Of a DNA stretch of 64,000 bases, positions 57,708 through 64,000 are shown piece by piece. Source of the stretch: Flexilinea flocculi (GTDB lineage Bacteria > Chloroflexota > Anaerolineae > Anaerolineales > Anaerolineaceae); the NCBI RefSeq assembly GCF_001192795.1, contig NZ_DF968181.1, positions 1,354,974-1,418,973 on the forward strand, read 5' to 3'. The notes beneath the pieces are model-generated. The model saw only the letters and a list, made by a program, of their open reading frames with translations, searched no databases and was not told the origin of the DNA. Position 1 is the first letter of the stretch. Every line of letters begins with the position of its first letter. The position numbers were made by a program, and so were the translations under genes.

Positions 57708-58439
57708 TTATGATTTTACTGCATATGAGTAGAATGTCGGGACGAAAAAGATTTCATCGTGTTTTAATGGATCTGTTGTAATGCCGGGTTCGGTTCTTTT
57801 TAGATCGATTCTGCATTGAGATTTTTCTTCTGAGATAAATTGACTTTGATCATCCAGGTTTCGCTCAATTCCATGAATTCCAATGATGGGATTGTGGATT
57901 CCAGCCTGAAGCATCCAATGCAACAGCTTTCTGCCTGCAGCGGGATCAATGCCTGCTTTCGATAGAGCTTCTGTCTGTTCCTTGCCATCTGCCTGTTCCG
58001 TTTCCGGAAAATCGATTCGACCATCATAATCCGGTTCCGCAGTAACAGCGATAATCCCCTGCGGTTTACAGCAACGGAACATTTCATTCAATACATTAAC
58101 CGGATCAGGAAGCCAGAGCAGTAAATAATGGCAGAGGACCAAATCAAATGAATCTGATTTCATAGGAATAGAATTTCCATCGCCGCATATCCATAGCCCT
58201 TTTCGAATTTTTTCTGCAAAAACCAACGCGGAAAAATCAATATCCACTCCCCAAAAAGAGAAATTGGAGGAAGCCAATCGATTTATTTGTCTGAGAAATG
58301 CACCAGTTCCAGACCCGATTTCTAAGACTTTCCATGGAGGAGGTGTTTTTAATCCGCGGAGTAAACGCCGCTGAAAATTTTCTGTCCACACAGCCTGTAG
58401 TTCATATCGGTGATTGATTGTCTCATAATCCATTTCCAT
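57708..58439 (-). CDS. Class I SAM-dependent methyltransferase
   Basis: A 243-residue Rossmann methyltransferase. Motif I WKVLEIGSGTGAFLRQI binds SAM; the acidic loop WGVDIDFSALVFA, SFDLVLCHYLLLWLPDP and the following LNEMFRCCKPQGIIAV are standard. Substrate unknown. It lies downstream of the radical SAM gene on the same strand, but a palindromic element and 229 bases separate them, so membership in that pathway is uncertain. Confidence 0.88.
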   Translation of the reverse strand: MEMDYETINHRYELQAVWTENFQRRLLRGLKTPPPWKVLEIGSGTGAFLRQINRLASSNFSFWGVDIDFSALVFAEKIRKGLWICGDGNSIPMKSDSFDLVLCHYLLLWLPDPVNVLNEMFRCCKPQGIIAVTAEPDYDGRIDFPETEQADGKEQTEALSKAGIDPAAGRKLLHWMLQAGIHNPIIGIHGIERNLDDQSQFISEEKSQCRIDLKRTEPGITTDPLKHDEIFFVPTFYSYAVKS

Positions 58440-58668: not shown

Positions 58669-60036
58669 CTAAAAATCGGCAGGTATGGATCGTTGTGGTT
58701 TTACTGGTGGTTTGAAATCTTTTGCCAGAGGACAGCCGCCACCGCAGATTTCCAGTAAATCGCATTTCTTGCAGTCTTCAGCAATGAATTTTCGATTTCG
58801 GATGTCCTGACACAAAGGCGCATTCCAGATTTTTTCCCAGGGATCTGTCAGTATATTTCCAATTGTCTCATACCAGGATTGACATGGAATGACGGATCCG
58901 TCGGGTTCGATACACATGCTGTATCGAGCAGCCGAACAACCTTTTACACCAAGATCATAATCAAGCGGATTGAAATAACAATACTCTGTTGGCGTGTACC
59001 AGGTTAGATATTGTTGATTTTCTATACATGTTTTTTCTGCAATTTTCAGCAACGGCGGCAATTCGGATTCATCCAATCCGGTGTCGACTTCCTTCCCGGA
59101 TCCTGAATAGATCAGGGCGTTCATCCCAACATTTTGAACGCCTAATTCAGCCAGAAAACGCAGCAAACTGACAATTTTTTCCGGAGTAGCGTTTGATCTT
59201 AACAACGTGGTATTGGTCATGATGAACATGCTGGTACGAACTGCATTTTGAATTCCAGCTACTGTTTCTTCCCAGGACCCTTTATTCCCCACCATTGCAT
59301 CATGGATCTCAGCAGAATCCGATTCCAATGTAATCTGGATATGGTCTAATTTCCGATTTTCGAGTTCTTTTACAAACGAATTGTCTTTCAAAGTTCGCCC
59401 GTTGGTGTTAAGACCGGTTACCAGACCCAGGTTTTCAGCTTCTGTCAGCAGATCGAATAAACCCGGGAAAAGAGTCGGTTCTCCCCCTGTGAATACGACA
59501 TGAGGAATTCCTGCTTTTGCGATTTTCCGGAGGATTTTTTTCCATGATTCAACCGATACTGTTTTTCCGGTTCTCTGCTTTTCATTGTAACAATGACCGC
59601 ATTCATTATTGCATCCGTAGGTCAATGCAAGATCCATCCTGTATGGTGCGGAAGGGACTTTAGAAAATGGCATGGTGCTGCTGATTCCGCTCTGACATAA
59701 ATCGCAAACATCGCTTTTCCCATCCAGTAAATCGCGGATTTGCGGAGCAAAAACCTTGAAATCCGCTGAGACCCGTTCAAAGTCTTTTGGATAAATTTTC
59801 TTGAAAATCTGATGGATTTCCTTTTCCGTCTTATTATTCATCAGAGCCCAGGACATTAAGCCGGCGCTGGAATTTAAATAGAAAGTCTGGTTGGCATTTA
59901 CCCAGAGAATTCCAGTACCATCATCATCAATCCGCAAATGGATTCTGCTGATAATCTTGTCCCCATCTTTAATTTTTTTCTCAAATAATCCTTTATGAAA
60001 GGTATCACCAAAAAGTGGCAAGGATAACTTTTTCAT
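58669..60036 (-). CDS. RRE-radical SAM-SPASM maturase
   Basis: A 455-residue enzyme. Residues about 30-105 look like a PqqD-type recognition domain (ILWVNANQTFYLNSSAGL, then KTEKEIHQIFKK and DFKVFAPQIRDLL). The radical SAM core carries the CxxxCxxC cluster at Cys142, 146, 149 (GCNNECGHC) and FTGGEPTLFPG. The SPASM region contains GCSAARYSMCIEPDGSVIPC and the terminal CKKCDLLEICGGGCP. This architecture is that of enzymes that cross-link Cys or other residues in peptides. Start ATG 60036, five bases after a gene whose product ends in an alternating Ala-Cys tail, the obvious candidate substrate. Confidence 0.88.
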   Translation of the reverse strand: MKKLSLPLFGDTFHKGLFEKKIKDGDKIISRIHLRIDDDGTGILWVNANQTFYLNSSAGLMSWALMNNKTEKEIHQIFKKIYPKDFERVSADFKVFAPQIRDLLDGKSDVCDLCQSGISSTMPFSKVPSAPYRMDLALTYGCNNECGHCYNEKQRTGKTVSVESWKKILRKIAKAGIPHVVFTGGEPTLFPGLFDLLTEAENLGLVTGLNTNGRTLKDNSFVKELENRKLDHIQITLESDSAEIHDAMVGNKGSWEETVAGIQNAVRTSMFIMTNTTLLRSNATPEKIVSLLRFLAELGVQNVGMNALIYSGSGKEVDTGLDESELPPLLKIAEKTCIENQQYLTWYTPTEYCYFNPLDYDLGVKGCSAARYSMCIEPDGSVIPCQSWYETIGNILTDPWEKIWNAPLCQDIRNRKFIAEDCKKCDLLEICGGGCPLAKDFKPPVKPQRSIPADF

Positions 60037-60041
60037 AGGAT

Positions 60042-61811
60042 TTACCGTCCTCCTCCGCCGCCAGCACAAGCGCATCCAGCACAAGCGCAGGCGCAGGCGC
60101 AGCTATGTCCTCCACCACCTCGTCCTGACCAACTACTGCGTGAAGAACTGCCGGATGGTGCACTGATCGGATTTGTTTTTCCAGTCACCTGGTTCGTAAA
60201 GCCTTTGATGCTTCCGACGGTTCCAACCCCAAAGTTTCTGACCGAATCGGTAATGGATCGTGCGAATTCAGATCCAGGAAGCGTTGGTGTCGACCGGCTG
60301 GTTGAAGTGGAAGGAACGTTGGTCGGACCACTTGCAGGCGCAGAGCTAACTGGGCCGGTTGTCGGATGATAAACAGGCCCCATACGCCACCACCAGGTCG
60401 GAACGTAGACTGGTCCGTCGCCAAATATATCTTTTGTCTTTCCTTCAACGTTTTCGTCCAAAATTGCCCAGCCAAATATTTCATCCAATTTTTCACCCTT
60501 CAATTCCGGCGAATCAGCATCTTGAACTTGTTGCCATGCTTTTTCGATAATGCTTCGATAATACGCTTTGGTTTCATCCAGACTGTATCCTTTCATTTTT
60601 TCCGTGACAGAAAGGATTAAGTCAGTAATTGTCTTCGTCATCTTCGCTTTTTTGTTTTTATCCTCAGATTCATTCATCGCTTCAATGAATCCTGATTCAT
60701 ACTCATATAACTTTTCCGGGAGCGGGTTTTCCACTTTGATTACGAGTGGATTCTGGCTGGTGACCGCAATTGCTCCTTTTTTGCTCAAAGAAAAGATGAT
60801 CATGGAGATGATTTTGTCCATCTTTTCCTCTAATAAAACCGCTGCTTCGACTGCTGTTAAACCTCTTTTAATGCCTTGCCCTTCGGCTTTAATGGCTGGC
60901 GGCAGATAACTGCCGGCTAAGCCTTTCATGTTCTTCGCTTTTTTGATGATTGCAAAGAATGACAGGAAAACAATTGAAATGGGGACAACACAAACCGCGA
61001 TCGAAAGGATTGTGTCAAAAAAGTTGTTTCCTCCTGATGAAGATGGACTACTTGAATAACTTTTCGGATCGCTGATCTGATCTTGTGAAGTTAATATACG
61101 CTTCGGAAACATAGCTCCAAAGATATACTCTGATCTGCTGTTTGCTTGCGTTGAATGCCATTCGTATACAACATTTCCATTATCATTAAACCAGGTTTCC
61201 GGTTCAGATGCTCCATCCCAATTTTGGGGTGGAAAGTAGACTGGATCATTTTCTGTCATTCCGGTTGGCAGCACCAACCTGACTGTTAAGTCAGTGTTCC
61301 CTCTGGTAAAATCCGGCGAAAAATAATTCGGTTGAAAGTTGAAACTAATATAATCTTCCTCTTTTGAATTATCCTCGACGTAATAGAGAGTTTTTCCAAT
61401 CTGCATCGCTTCGACATAAATATCTGCCCGTTTTCCTTTAGGAATTGGATTCCGTGTATTATCGATCGTAATGCCATATGGAATACCGGTTTCTTGATAA
61501 TCTGTCCTTGAAATGTAACGAGAGGGCACGGGGTTTCCGTCGATCGATGCTGTGACATTTGTTAAATCGAACTGATTGTTCGGCAGCGCAATGTCAATAT
61601 AATCAACGCCTCTTCCCTGGTTTTCGATTGTGAATTCATAAGAAACGGAAGCTTTACCGTCAGAGTCAATTGCATAAATTACGAAATTCTCAGGAATAGA
61701 AAATCGATAATCCTCGGCAGATACATTGACAGGCGTCATCTGAATCCATAGAATCATTGCCAGAAAAAGCACGAGGATTTTAATTCCGAGAAAACTCTTC
61801 TTCTTAAACAT
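60042..61811 (-). CDS. DUF2207-like membrane protein with Ala-Cys repeat C-terminus
   Basis: A 589-residue protein. Signal peptide or anchor at 7-31 (LGIKILVLFLAMILWIQM), an outside beta-rich domain (about 33-245), a membrane helix near 265-290 (ILSIAVCVVPISIVFLSFFAII), then a cytoplasmic part with LPPAIKAEGQGIKRGLTAVEA and MIIFSLSKKGAIAV, resembling DUF2207 proteins. A Ser/Pro/Thr/Gly linker leads to HSCACACACAGCACAG: Cys571, 573, 575, 577, 580 and 582, capped by GGGGGR. Start ATG 61811 chosen for its GGAGAG site. Followed by the radical SAM gene; the tail looks like a built-in substrate peptide facing the cytoplasm. Confidence 0.85.
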   Translation of the reverse strand: MFKKKSFLGIKILVLFLAMILWIQMTPVNVSAEDYRFSIPENFVIYAIDSDGKASVSYEFTIENQGRGVDYIDIALPNNQFDLTNVTASIDGNPVPSRYISRTDYQETGIPYGITIDNTRNPIPKGKRADIYVEAMQIGKTLYYVEDNSKEEDYISFNFQPNYFSPDFTRGNTDLTVRLVLPTGMTENDPVYFPPQNWDGASEPETWFNDNGNVVYEWHSTQANSRSEYIFGAMFPKRILTSQDQISDPKSYSSSPSSSGGNNFFDTILSIAVCVVPISIVFLSFFAIIKKAKNMKGLAGSYLPPAIKAEGQGIKRGLTAVEAAVLLEEKMDKIISMIIFSLSKKGAIAVTSQNPLVIKVENPLPEKLYEYESGFIEAMNESEDKNKKAKMTKTITDLILSVTEKMKGYSLDETKAYYRSIIEKAWQQVQDADSPELKGEKLDEIFGWAILDENVEGKTKDIFGDGPVYVPTWWWRMGPVYHPTTGPVSSAPASGPTNVPSTSTSRSTPTLPGSEFARSITDSVRNFGVGTVGSIKGFTNQVTGKTNPISAPSGSSSRSSWSGRGGGGHSCACACACAGCACAGGGGGR

Positions 61812-61837
61812 TTTTACTCTCCGATTTTCAGAAAAAA

Positions 61838-62188
61838 TTACCATTTTGGTTCTTCTGTTACTGAATAAGAAGCTCCACAATAGGGGCAGATGACAGTCGG
61901 CGTGCCATTGACGATTTTAAAATCGGCTGGATTGATCGCGCCGCCGCATTGCCTGCAATTCTGATTCGTCATTTTTACTTCACCAGGAAGATCCACTTGA
62001 TAGGTAACATGTTTTTCTCCGGATTTTTTACTGCGATTGGTGACTGCCAGAATGGCAATTCCGATAATGATCATGATGATACCAATGATTAATGCGCTTC
62101 CATCAAACGGTTGACCGAATGCGCCCCAGATGAAAAGTACTCCAAAAAACAAACTGATAACGGCAAGGATATAAGCAATAATTTTCAT
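61838..62188 (-). CDS. Two-helix membrane protein with C-terminal zinc ribbon
   Basis: A 116-residue protein. Two hydrophobic helices (IIAYILAVISLFFGVLFIWGAF and ALIIGIIMIIIGIAILAV), a basic linker, then a zinc ribbon CRQCGGAINP and CPYCGASYSV. Function unknown. It overlaps the preceding zinc-ribbon gene by 4 bases (ATGA) and lies 26 bases before the Ala-Cys protein gene, so it belongs to the same operon. Confidence 0.8.
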   Translation of the reverse strand: MKIIAYILAVISLFFGVLFIWGAFGQPFDGSALIIGIIMIIIGIAILAVTNRSKKSGEKHVTYQVDLPGEVKMTNQNCRQCGGAINPADFKIVNGTPTVICPYCGASYSVTEEPKW

Positions 62189-63279
62189 TTTTTCTCCAAA
62201 CTGACAATATTTCCAATCCCGTTGACTTCAATTGCATAGACATCATCAAGGTTAAATGTTTGATATTCATCAATCGTTGCCGGATTGTACACGTAATTTT
62301 TTCCTGTATCATCCTGGAATGATACTGTATAAGATACCTGCTCAGCCCCCTTTTTTTGGTTGGATCCAAGACTTAACAATGGCATCCTTGGATTGCTGTC
62401 TTGTCCAGTCGCAGTTTTTACACTGATAACACCCCAATCAAGATATGTGTACGTGCATTTGTCATCATATATGATATAAAAACAATCCTGTACTTTTTCG
62501 CTGTATCCATTTCCACGATCAACCAGATATGGTTGACCGCATTCTTCCACAGACCCGGGGACATAACTTTCGGATTTTTCTCGGATCTCTTTTGAGCAAT
62601 TCTCAATCGTGCTATTCGATGGGATTTCATCATACCAGTCTTCTGCTGTCTTATTGACCAGACCGAGAATTTCAATCTGTGTCTTCCATTCTGTATTTGT
62701 TACCACAGCGGTTGTCTGATCTGTCTTCAGGAATGCAAAATAAATAGCAGCAAAGCCCAATATCAGCAGAATGATTCCGGCAATCAGACAGCCGCCGGAA
62801 CCGAGGAATCCTTTTCTTCCGCTTTGTCCTGTTGCTGTCGGGACATTATTCGAAGGGGGTACGTATGAGGTTTTTAAAGGAGAGCCACAGGAAGTGCAAG
62901 CCAGTAGATTCATTGGATTTTCTGTGCCGCAAACTTCGCAGCGGATTGTATCCGTAACAGGCGCTTCCTGGGCTGCAAATTTATCTCCTGCTTCTCTTGC
63001 CTTGCCCTCGGAAAGCGCCGCACCGCAATTGCTGCAAGTTTTCGCATTTCCCGGATTACGATTTCCACAATATGCACAATATATATCCGGGCCAGCTTTT
63101 GCCTCTTCAATTGCTTTTAGATCCTGAATAAGTTCTTCTTTGATCGGGACCTCAAATTTTACGTCATTGGGCATAGATGCGCCGCAATTTTTACATGAGC
63201 GGCGAGCTCCCGGATTTTTTGTGCCACAATTAGGACAAGTCCAAACCATCTGTACATAACCGATTGATTTTTGTGCCAT
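62185..63279 (-). CDS. Triple zinc-ribbon membrane protein
   Basis: A 364-residue protein. Three zinc ribbons in the first 130 residues (CPNCGTKN with CKNCGAS; CAYCGNRN with CSNCGAA; CEVCGTEN with CTSCGSP), then one membrane helix (CLIAGIILLILGFAAIYFAFL) and a 190-residue outside domain containing several Cys and aromatic residues. No enzyme family recognised. Start ATG 63279 after AAAGGAAAT. First gene of the operon that ends with the radical SAM enzyme; it may act as an adaptor for the cytoplasmic Cys-rich tail. Confidence 0.8.
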   Translation of the reverse strand: MAQKSIGYVQMVWTCPNCGTKNPGARRSCKNCGASMPNDVKFEVPIKEELIQDLKAIEEAKAGPDIYCAYCGNRNPGNAKTCSNCGAALSEGKAREAGDKFAAQEAPVTDTIRCEVCGTENPMNLLACTSCGSPLKTSYVPPSNNVPTATGQSGRKGFLGSGGCLIAGIILLILGFAAIYFAFLKTDQTTAVVTNTEWKTQIEILGLVNKTAEDWYDEIPSNSTIENCSKEIREKSESYVPGSVEECGQPYLVDRGNGYSEKVQDCFYIIYDDKCTYTYLDWGVISVKTATGQDSNPRMPLLSLGSNQKKGAEQVSYTVSFQDDTGKNYVYNPATIDEYQTFNLDDVYAIEVNGIGNIVSLEKK

Positions 63280-63651: not shown

Positions 63652-64000
63652 ATGGAAGAGGATTCATTAAAAACAAAGTACGTTGAATTAATTCGGGAAA
63701 TCAATCAACATAATTATCAATATCATGTACTGGATCAACCGATCATCAGTGATGGAGAATTTGACAGATTACTACAGGAACTCCGAAGGATTGAAGAAGC
63801 CCATCCCGATTGGATCAGCAGCGAATCACCGACACAACGAGTCGGAAGTTTTGTGTTGGAAAAATTTGGTAAAGTCACACATGCTGCACCGGTTTTAAGT
63901 CTGGCGAATGCATTTTCGGAAGCCGATGTGAAATCCTGGCTTGACCGGATTACCAAACTGGATGAAAGAATAAAATACGCGGATTTTGTACTTGAGCCAA
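63652..64000 (+). CDS. ligA: NAD-dependent DNA ligase, N-terminal part, cut by window end
   Basis: Reading from ATG 63652 gives 116 residues up to the window edge. They match the LigA Ia and early adenylation domains: HNYQYHVLDQPIISDGEFDRL, EEAHPDWISSESPTQRVG and APVLSLANAFSEADVKSWLDR. The enzyme seals nicks using NAD. Because the frame is open at the edge it could be missed by ORF callers. Plus strand, divergent from the zinc-ribbon operon. Confidence 0.93.
   Translation, partial: MEEDSLKTKYVELIREINQHNYQYHVLDQPIISDGEFDRLLQELRRIEEAHPDWISSESPTQRVGSFVLEKFGKVTHAAPVLSLANAFSEADVKSWLDRITKLDERIKYADFVLEP

Follow-up and report, generated by a model that had tools for sequence, protein, structure and literature searches.

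A radical SAM/SPASM enzyme and a membrane protein with a Cys-Ala tail in Flexilinea flocculi: a predicted protein-tail modification system in Anaerolineae

Radical S-adenosylmethionine (SAM) maturases that carry a SPASM domain and a recognition element (RRE) for ribosomally synthesized and post-translationally modified peptides (RiPPs), of the type of SuiB (which has a PqqD-like domain), SkfB and CteB, act on short leader peptides, and the His-Xaa-Ser system (HxsA/HxsC) pairs a short-period repeat protein with radical SAM enzymes. Membrane proteins of TIGR04222 with Cys-rich C-terminal segments are proposed, in the available part of PMC12452194, as substrates of MNIO enzymes; this pairing is the nearest published idea found. 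According to the accessible sections of PMC10457818, the DUF2207 protein SMU.243 of Streptococcus mutans affects acid and oxidative stress tolerance as well as biofilm formation. The locus described here lies in a stretch of 64,000 nucleotides from Flexilinea flocculi (GCF_001192795.1, contig NZ_DF968181.1, positions 1,354,974 to 1,418,973), called the window below, the genome being labelled G000. It encodes a 455-residue radical SAM/SPASM enzyme (P0001) next to a 589-residue membrane protein (P0002) whose C-terminus is built of Cys and Ala. With a probability of roughly 0.7, the pair is a dedicated protein-tail modification system in which the enzyme modifies the tail of P0002 in place, in the cytosol.

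The Cys-Ala tail and its linked enzyme

The tail reported in an earlier note on this DNA is present as claimed: P0002 terminates in GGGGHSCACACACAGCACAGGGGGR, with Cys residues at positions 571, 573, 575, 577, 580 and 582 that alternate with Ala except at Gly579, giving the end (CA)4-G-(CA)2-GGGGGR. Its conservation is readily apparent from an alignment of P0002 with 28 homologues, each 31-86% identical to it. Amino-acid diversity over the last 17 codons is 0.016 versus 0.527 over 459 gap-free body columns, and even the least diverse 17-column window of the body reaches 0.126. The third codon positions, at 0.588 in the tail versus 0.608 in the body, are saturated, and DNA-level slippage was therefore ruled out as the origin of the repeat. 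The Cys-Ala tail is under strong selection as a peptide. Six Cys occur in P0002 and in two others of the 29 proteins, and seven or eight in the remainder; the tail of the window is a slight variant, with GG in place of one CA unit, that is common to the locus L031 of a Flexilinea metagenome-assembled genome. The features of the enzyme and of its presumed substrate, in window coordinates, are the following.

58669-60036, minus strand: RRE-radical SAM/SPASM enzyme P0001, 455 residues, presumed tail modifier (PF04055, PF13186; Foldseek SuiB, then SkfB, PqqE)
59725-59991, minus strand: RRE-like (PqqD-like) winged helix, residues 16-104 (AlphaFold2, AF2, model; PqqD in 26 of 32 aligned members)
59590-59613, minus strand: radical SAM CxxxCxxC motif, Cys142/146/149 (invariant, 32/32)
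58732-58980, minus strand: SPASM region Cys353-Cys435, with CX2CX5CX3C at 422-435 (invariant Cys; PF13186)
60042-61811, minus strand: 589-residue membrane protein P0002, presumed substrate, distant DUF2207/TIGR04222-like scaffold (hydropathy; profile match to the type-2 family described below)
61104-61703, minus strand: presumed extracytoplasmic beta-rich domain, residues 37-236 (AF2 model; low-identity fold matches)
60945-61001, minus strand: transmembrane segment, residues 271-289, with basic residues C-terminal of it (hydropathy)
60162-60281, minus strand: conserved pre-tail segment, residues 511-550 (LPG..FA...FT......TNP), candidate recognition element (invariant residues; similar segment on the kinase fusion of locus L093)
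60045-60101, minus strand: Cys-Ala tail, residues 571-589, CACACACAGCACAGGGGGR (near-invariant in the 29 aligned proteins, third positions saturated)

A class sample of 298 Anaerolineae genomes was used to follow the tail, designated type 1, and its enzyme. The DNA pattern of the tail was matched at 44 places in 39 of these genomes, compared with a single place for the reversed control, and all 44 places fall within P0002-matching stretches (coordinates compared by eye); tail occurrence is more than chance. Among 43 distinct open reading frame ends with the motif, 42 finish in GGGR (one of them as GGGGGR) and one runs into N. A scan of contigs with P0002 yielded only the three named loci L031-L033, of which L031 is the closest (P0002 86% identical over residues 22-552); the search of the class genomes yielded far more.

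A lack of co-occurrence in other genomes had been set beforehand as grounds for refuting the earlier note, and the tail was found with the enzyme throughout. With type-1 enzymes defined as P0001 matches at E <1e-90 (43 of the 298 genomes; 133 match at E<=1e-15), the enzyme is present in 39 of 39 genomes with a type-1 tail. The Fisher tests of this association take no account of ancestry. In each of the genera g1, g5, g7 and g8, however, some genomes hold both tail and enzyme while others hold neither by these criteria (G253 in g1; G111 and G179 in g5; G130 and G223 in g7; G192 in g8), so that shared ancestry alone does not account for the pairing. Furthermore, 30 type-1 loci were compared (L001-L027 and L031-L033, most with flanks of about 1.5 kb), and in 26 of them the next gene after that of the substrate encodes the enzyme. 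No enzyme adjoins in L022-L025 (in L024 because the contig ends); the genomes in question, G048, G100, G012 and G173, carry it on another contig.

P0002 has matches in 72 genomes, and all but two of these contain the type-1 tail or the type-2 tail described below (70/72). One of the two others, G024, has its gene cut by the contig end. The other, G296, holds a weak scaffold relative (L137:86-1474, plus strand) with 27.6% identity across residues 440-589 (E 1.3e-8 when low-complexity regions were left unfiltered). The tail of this relative is a run of Gly and Ser that contains no Cys, and its genome is outside the 133 that match P0001 at E<=1e-15. In draws of 400 genomes from the phylum, 345 of them outside the class, either tail was found outside the class only in G307 (1/345). 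That genome has both systems (L136:4049-5794, minus strand, and L141:5624-7321, plus strand), which are possibly of foreign origin, given a listed contamination of 8%.

Enzyme, scaffold and a second tail type

P0001 exceeds the Pfam cut-offs for Radical_SAM (87.0 bits, cut-off 29.5) and SPASM (43.5, cut-off 21.5). All 32 aligned members have both domains, none of them departs from the motifs CxxxCxxC and CX2CX5CX3C, and 26 match the PqqD model PF05402 at E<=0.01. In the AF2 model of P0001 (predicted local distance difference test, pLDDT, 77.9; predicted template modelling score, pTM, 0.81), the N-terminus comprises four strands (16-24, 27-36, 42-46 and 50-54) and three helices (56-66, 71-81 and 86-104). 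Foldseek places SuiB first, followed by SkfB, PqqE, BlsE, 5why (which we take to be CteB) and an anaerobic sulfatase-maturating enzyme; 5why is annotated for sactipeptide thioether formation. Sequence profiles rank PqqE and SkfB first, and P0001 stays under the cut-off of each of the 25 NCBIfam families listed for it. An RRE-like domain is thus part of this enzyme family, and the earlier assignment of a radical SAM/SPASM enzyme with a PqqD-like N-terminus is upheld by the domain scans of the family and by the model.

Regarding the scaffold, only two stretches of P0002 are hydrophobic, namely 7-25 (signal peptide) and 271-289, and the 15 residues before the second segment hold no Lys or Arg compared with four in the 15 residues after it. 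This pattern would place the beta-rich domain (37-236) outside and the C-terminal half inside, with the tail predicted to face the cytosol; in the AF2 model the Cys tail is of low confidence (disordered). Matches of the ectodomain in Foldseek, among them M1 aminopeptidases and an oligosaccharyltransferase subunit, are at about 10% identity and were set aside as uninformative on function. P0002 is conserved along its length in the 29-protein alignment and does not follow the plan of a short leader-core precursor. The presumed target is, as the earlier note had it, a large membrane protein, which makes in-place modification the simplest reading.

Direct scans of P0002 against Pfam and NCBIfam gave no match at E<=1, and the family was therefore reached through relatives; P0002 is below detection for DUF2207 (PF09972), and TIGR04222 has no match in P0002 or in its genome. 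Distant scaffold homologues end in (CHSA)n repeats or close variants (17 distinct ends read), designated type 2. The CHSA pattern occurs in 32 of the 298 class genomes, with none for the reversed control, and 32 of 32 also carry a divergent enzyme whose best-matched stretch shares 31-37% identity with P0001. The type-2 enzyme set consists of P0001 matches that reach residue 422 or beyond (E 1.7e-64 to 2.0e-30; 34 genomes). Cross-pairs of tail and enzyme are found in the class draw only in G276, which carries both tails and both enzymes. By profile comparison the two scaffolds are homologous (probability 99.9, E 1.4e-34), as are the two enzymes (E 1.3e-86). Collectively, the tail sequence changes together with the enzyme type. 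The link to described families comes through type 2: the scaffold of L066 exceeds the DUF2207 cut-off (PF09972, 31.0 bits versus 24.4), and TIGR04222 is detected at E<=0.01 in 11 of 12 type-2 members, below or near its cut-off (L066 38.3 bits, cut-off 43).

The pre-tail segment of type 1 contains the invariant residues P512, G513, A517, F538, T539, T546 and P548. In G048, a 1139-residue Ser/Thr kinase fusion (protein kinase plus AAA, AAA_16) with a CA tail is encoded upstream of the enzyme (L093:990-4409, plus strand), and it matches P0002 only from residue 448 on, at 40% identity, including the LPG...TNPPP segment and the tail. The fusion is possibly an assembly chimaera. Since it shares only the pre-tail region and the tail with P0002, the pre-tail segment is the best candidate for recognition. 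In G263, a P0002-type ectodomain is part of a protein without a Cys tail that, read from its sequence, begins like a Ser/Thr kinase (L097:2442-5078, minus strand); the ectodomain follows the kinase-like part, and the C-terminal domain presumably resembles formylglycine-generating enzymes. Two different tail-bearing proteins stand in tandem in L081 (6301-8064 and 8080-10053, plus strand), a cluster that also holds a Ser/Thr kinase gene, and likewise in L082 and L085.

Partner and neighbouring genes

The earlier note had described four genes on one strand with gaps of -4, 26 and 5 bases; the arrangement, on the minus strand, and the coordinates agree. The end that it set at 58669 did not hold, as the conserved neighbourhood continues to a methyltransferase gene. 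The partners of the enzyme and P0002 in the window are listed below.

57708-58439, minus strand: SAM-dependent methyltransferase, 243 residues, linked gene (PF08241, Methyltransf_11, 65.2 bits, cut-off 21.2)
61838-62188, minus strand: 116-residue protein with two hydrophobic segments and C-terminal zinc-ribbon-like Cys pairs (29 of 30 type-1 loci)
62185-63279, minus strand: 364-residue zinc-ribbon membrane protein P0004, apparently lineage-specific, not core (PF13240, PF12773; the window's locus and L031)

Of the two zinc-ribbon membrane proteins once proposed as assistants, the 116-residue one is retained, being upstream of the substrate in all type-1 loci except the short L017. It has hydrophobic segments at 3-21 and 32-50, two Cys pairs and the end ...EEPKW; the zinc ribbon is assigned from the Cys pairs, with no Pfam model at cut-off. 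P0004 was rejected as a core part, since it was seen only in the window's locus and in the Flexilinea locus L031. In 28 of 37 genomes, among them that of the window, a relative of the methyltransferase is encoded in the neighbourhood of the substrate, the enzyme or a paralogue of the enzyme, and L031-L033 have one too. They are not in the neighbourhoods of G164, G061, G276, G072, G229, G239, G254, G234 and G128, some of which end with the contig. In G285 the methyltransferase stands beside an enzyme paralogue on another contig, and in L086, L090 and L091 it stands beside the enzyme though no substrate adjoins.

The loci of relatives contain 19 radical-SAM paralogues and three more distant ones, and CxxxCxxC is present in none of the 22 (for example L094:1371-2525 and L101:2598-3743, minus strand; L098:3570-4916 and L081:4903-6192, plus strand). 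In the genome of the window, P0001 finds nothing but itself at E<=1e-15. In G192 such a paralogue without CxxxCxxC is kept, and no tail, P0002 match or enzyme match <1e-90 was found there.

An all-against-all comparison of 26 type-1 loci (matches in at least three other loci, with a Pfam scan of eight of the recurring proteins), which covers genes common to four or more of the loci, revealed no dedicated protease or exporter that recurs constantly. Five of the 26 (L111 and four with relatives) have a gene for signal peptidase S26 close to the cassette; all five belong to one family, f2, in which a phosphatase-like protein and a 346-residue protein without a Pfam match recur as well. Small PAS-like proteins are encoded near the enzyme or its paralogue in four loci (L102:6417-6785, plus strand; L110:5423-5764, minus strand; related reading frames in L094 and L113). 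Among eight type-2 loci, a 163-residue protein with a plan like that of the 116-residue one is near the enzyme in seven. A coiled-coil-like protein of about 390 residues (L129:11595-12758, plus strand) adjoins the enzyme and has relatives in all eight (256 residues in L131), and an InhA-like MAM domain protein (L129:13512-15527, plus strand) near the cassette has relatives in five.

In scans for promoters and terminators the counts were close to or under those expected from shuffled sequence (14 versus 13.5 and 4 versus 5.4, respectively), so that they mark no transcript ends, nor any in the gap of 229 bases ahead of the methyltransferase. At 63652-64000 on the plus strand, divergent from the cassette, the window contains a gene start resembling NAD-dependent DNA ligase; a DNA ligase also adjoins the cassette in L031, with relatives in L032, L033 and L095.

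Mechanism, alternatives and known systems

From these observations, we infer the following chemistry and physiology. The signal peptide would export P0002, leaving its beta-rich domain outside and the C-terminal half with the tail in the cytosol behind one transmembrane helix. The enzyme, itself cytosolic, would use its RRE to bind the conserved pre-tail helix and would modify successive tail Cys in place, most likely, to judge from the enzyme class, by forming thioethers of sactionine or ranthipeptide type. In the type-1 repeat, only carbons of Ala, Gly or Cys could accept such a thioether. The tail would remain on the protein, making dedicated leader removal or export unneeded. The two-helix zinc-ribbon protein would act as membrane partner, and the methyltransferase would add a further step or act together with the enzyme. 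The modified tail would probably serve a surface sensor as the cytosolic part that responds to stress, redox state or metals, an idea loosely suggested by the S. mutans DUF2207 phenotype (PMC10457818, accessible sections), the kinase-like start of the L097 protein, the kinase of L081 and the PAS-like neighbours.

Several points weigh against in-place modification of the tail. The modified tail is a predicted state, drawn from sequence and models, and co-occurrence alone cannot separate a substrate from another functional partner. P0001 itself is below the PqqD model PF05402, and the wording of the pre-tail segment is not common to types 1 and 2. The predicted topology is not firm, since exactly one internal hydrophobic segment (after residue 60) is found in only 12 of the 29 aligned proteins, the other 17 having none (one protein) or two to four (16). 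The extra hydropathy windows lie mostly beside the main segment, at about 295-328 or, in seven proteins, in the tail itself. In favour of the topology, Lys and Arg are more frequent after than before the first internal segment in 21 of the 28 proteins having one. In G100 and G173, enzyme and substrate are on different contigs. Four of the 43 genomes with a type-1 enzyme lack a type-1 tail match (G005, G006, G128 and G157, with completeness 85, 93, 93 and 68%); in the last three, the contig that carries the enzyme is short or ends beside it. Two of the 34 genomes of the type-2 enzyme set (G024 and G225) lack a type-2 tail match. Contig ends cut some of the loci in these six genomes. The criterion for the type-2 set was our own, chosen after the tails had been seen. 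Finally, the reversed CHSA control matched three places in one of the 400 phylum-draw genomes (G578), the pattern itself having matches in three genomes of that draw.

The alternative that survives best competes with the proposed chemistry only, not with modification of the tail. It is conceivable, at odds clearly below even, that the tail is modified by non-thioether chemistry, for example Cys oxidation of the kind seen in anaerobic sulfatase maturation or a residue change of some other kind, and that the methyltransferase attaches methyl groups. The anaerobic sulfatase-maturating enzyme among the fold matches of P0001 and the frequent linkage of the methyltransferase (28 of 37 genomes) are consistent with this. 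However, the best folds are the peptide maturases SuiB and SkfB, with the thioether-forming 5why also high, and the sulfatase maturation motif, CxPxR, is absent from the tail.

It is unlikely that the tail stays unmodified, as a metal-binding (metallothionein-like) element or a disulfide switch, with the enzyme acting elsewhere on P0002 or on the 116-residue partner. The evenly spaced Cys of type 1 and the Cys-His repeats of type 2 do resemble metal ligands, and the loci often include a membrane protein of zinc-ribbon type, but three observations speak against it: the tail type switches with the enzyme type, the kinase fusion upstream of an enzyme matches P0002 only from residue 448, and the weak relative whose Gly/Ser tail lacks Cys comes from a genome outside the 133 with P0001 matches. 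Release of the tail as a small product of a true RiPP pathway is very improbable, for although the combination of RRE, radical SAM/SPASM enzyme and methyltransferase resembles a RiPP cluster, with S26 peptidase genes in five of 26 type-1 loci and the MAM protein near five of eight type-2 loci, the genes shared by four or more of the 26 include no constant protease or exporter, the scaffold of the substrate, a membrane protein of full size, is conserved over its length, and the predicted topology turns the tail towards the cytosol.

A broader proposal, tentative and a little short of an even chance, is that Chloroflexota hold a class of membrane-anchored tails stapled in place. One scaffold superfamily would carry two or more repeats, (CA)n and (CHSA)n among them, a separate RRE-radical SAM enzyme would serve each, and the module of recognition segment and tail could be moved to other proteins, for instance a Ser/Thr kinase. 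On this broader proposal, taken with the TIGR04222/MNIO proteins, such tails would be a general type of protein modification, not a natural-product pathway. If in-place modification is correct, radical SAM/SPASM chemistry reaches the tail of a membrane protein of full size. Two natural substrate/enzyme pairs with simple repeats would then be at hand, one almost only of C, A and G and the other mainly of C, H, S and A, together with a seemingly portable module and, as likely partners, the motif-less paralogue and the methyltransferase. The DUF2207-type family, of unknown function according to the accessible sections of PMC10457818, would gain a testable biochemical handle.

In the open-licence literature, no work joining DUF2207 with radical SAM was found, nor a description of the tail-enzyme pairing. 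Among the literature matches listed, the tail strings CHSACHSAC and ACACACAGGGR are absent, and those for CACACACAG look like DNA by title. The TIGR04222/MNIO pairing, as presented in the available part of PMC12452194, is alike in its membrane protein, its low-complexity Cys-bearing C-terminus and its adjoining RiPP-type enzyme. Here, in contrast, the enzyme is a radical SAM/SPASM protein with an RRE-like domain, the repeat is strictly CA or CHSA, and the tail is predicted to be cytosolic, whereas it is periplasmic there. Among three genomes searched for MNIO (PF05114), G000 and G276 have none and G307 has one, on a third contig (L142) apart from its tail systems; MNIO was accordingly rejected as the enzyme of the tail for G000. 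Taken together with TIGR04222/MNIO, the present system, if real, would mean that one membrane scaffold superfamily is subject to two unrelated Cys-modifying chemistries. The scaffold superfamily is common to DUF2207 by way of type 2, P0002 itself lying below detection. The His-Xaa-Ser system differs in that P0001 scores 73.4 against HxsC, with a cut-off of 267.9, and in that the repeat here is Cys-based. SuiB, SkfB, CteB and other RRE-radical SAM/SPASM maturases have the same domain order and fold as P0001, and the difference lies in the presumed substrate, which here is a membrane protein of 589 residues.

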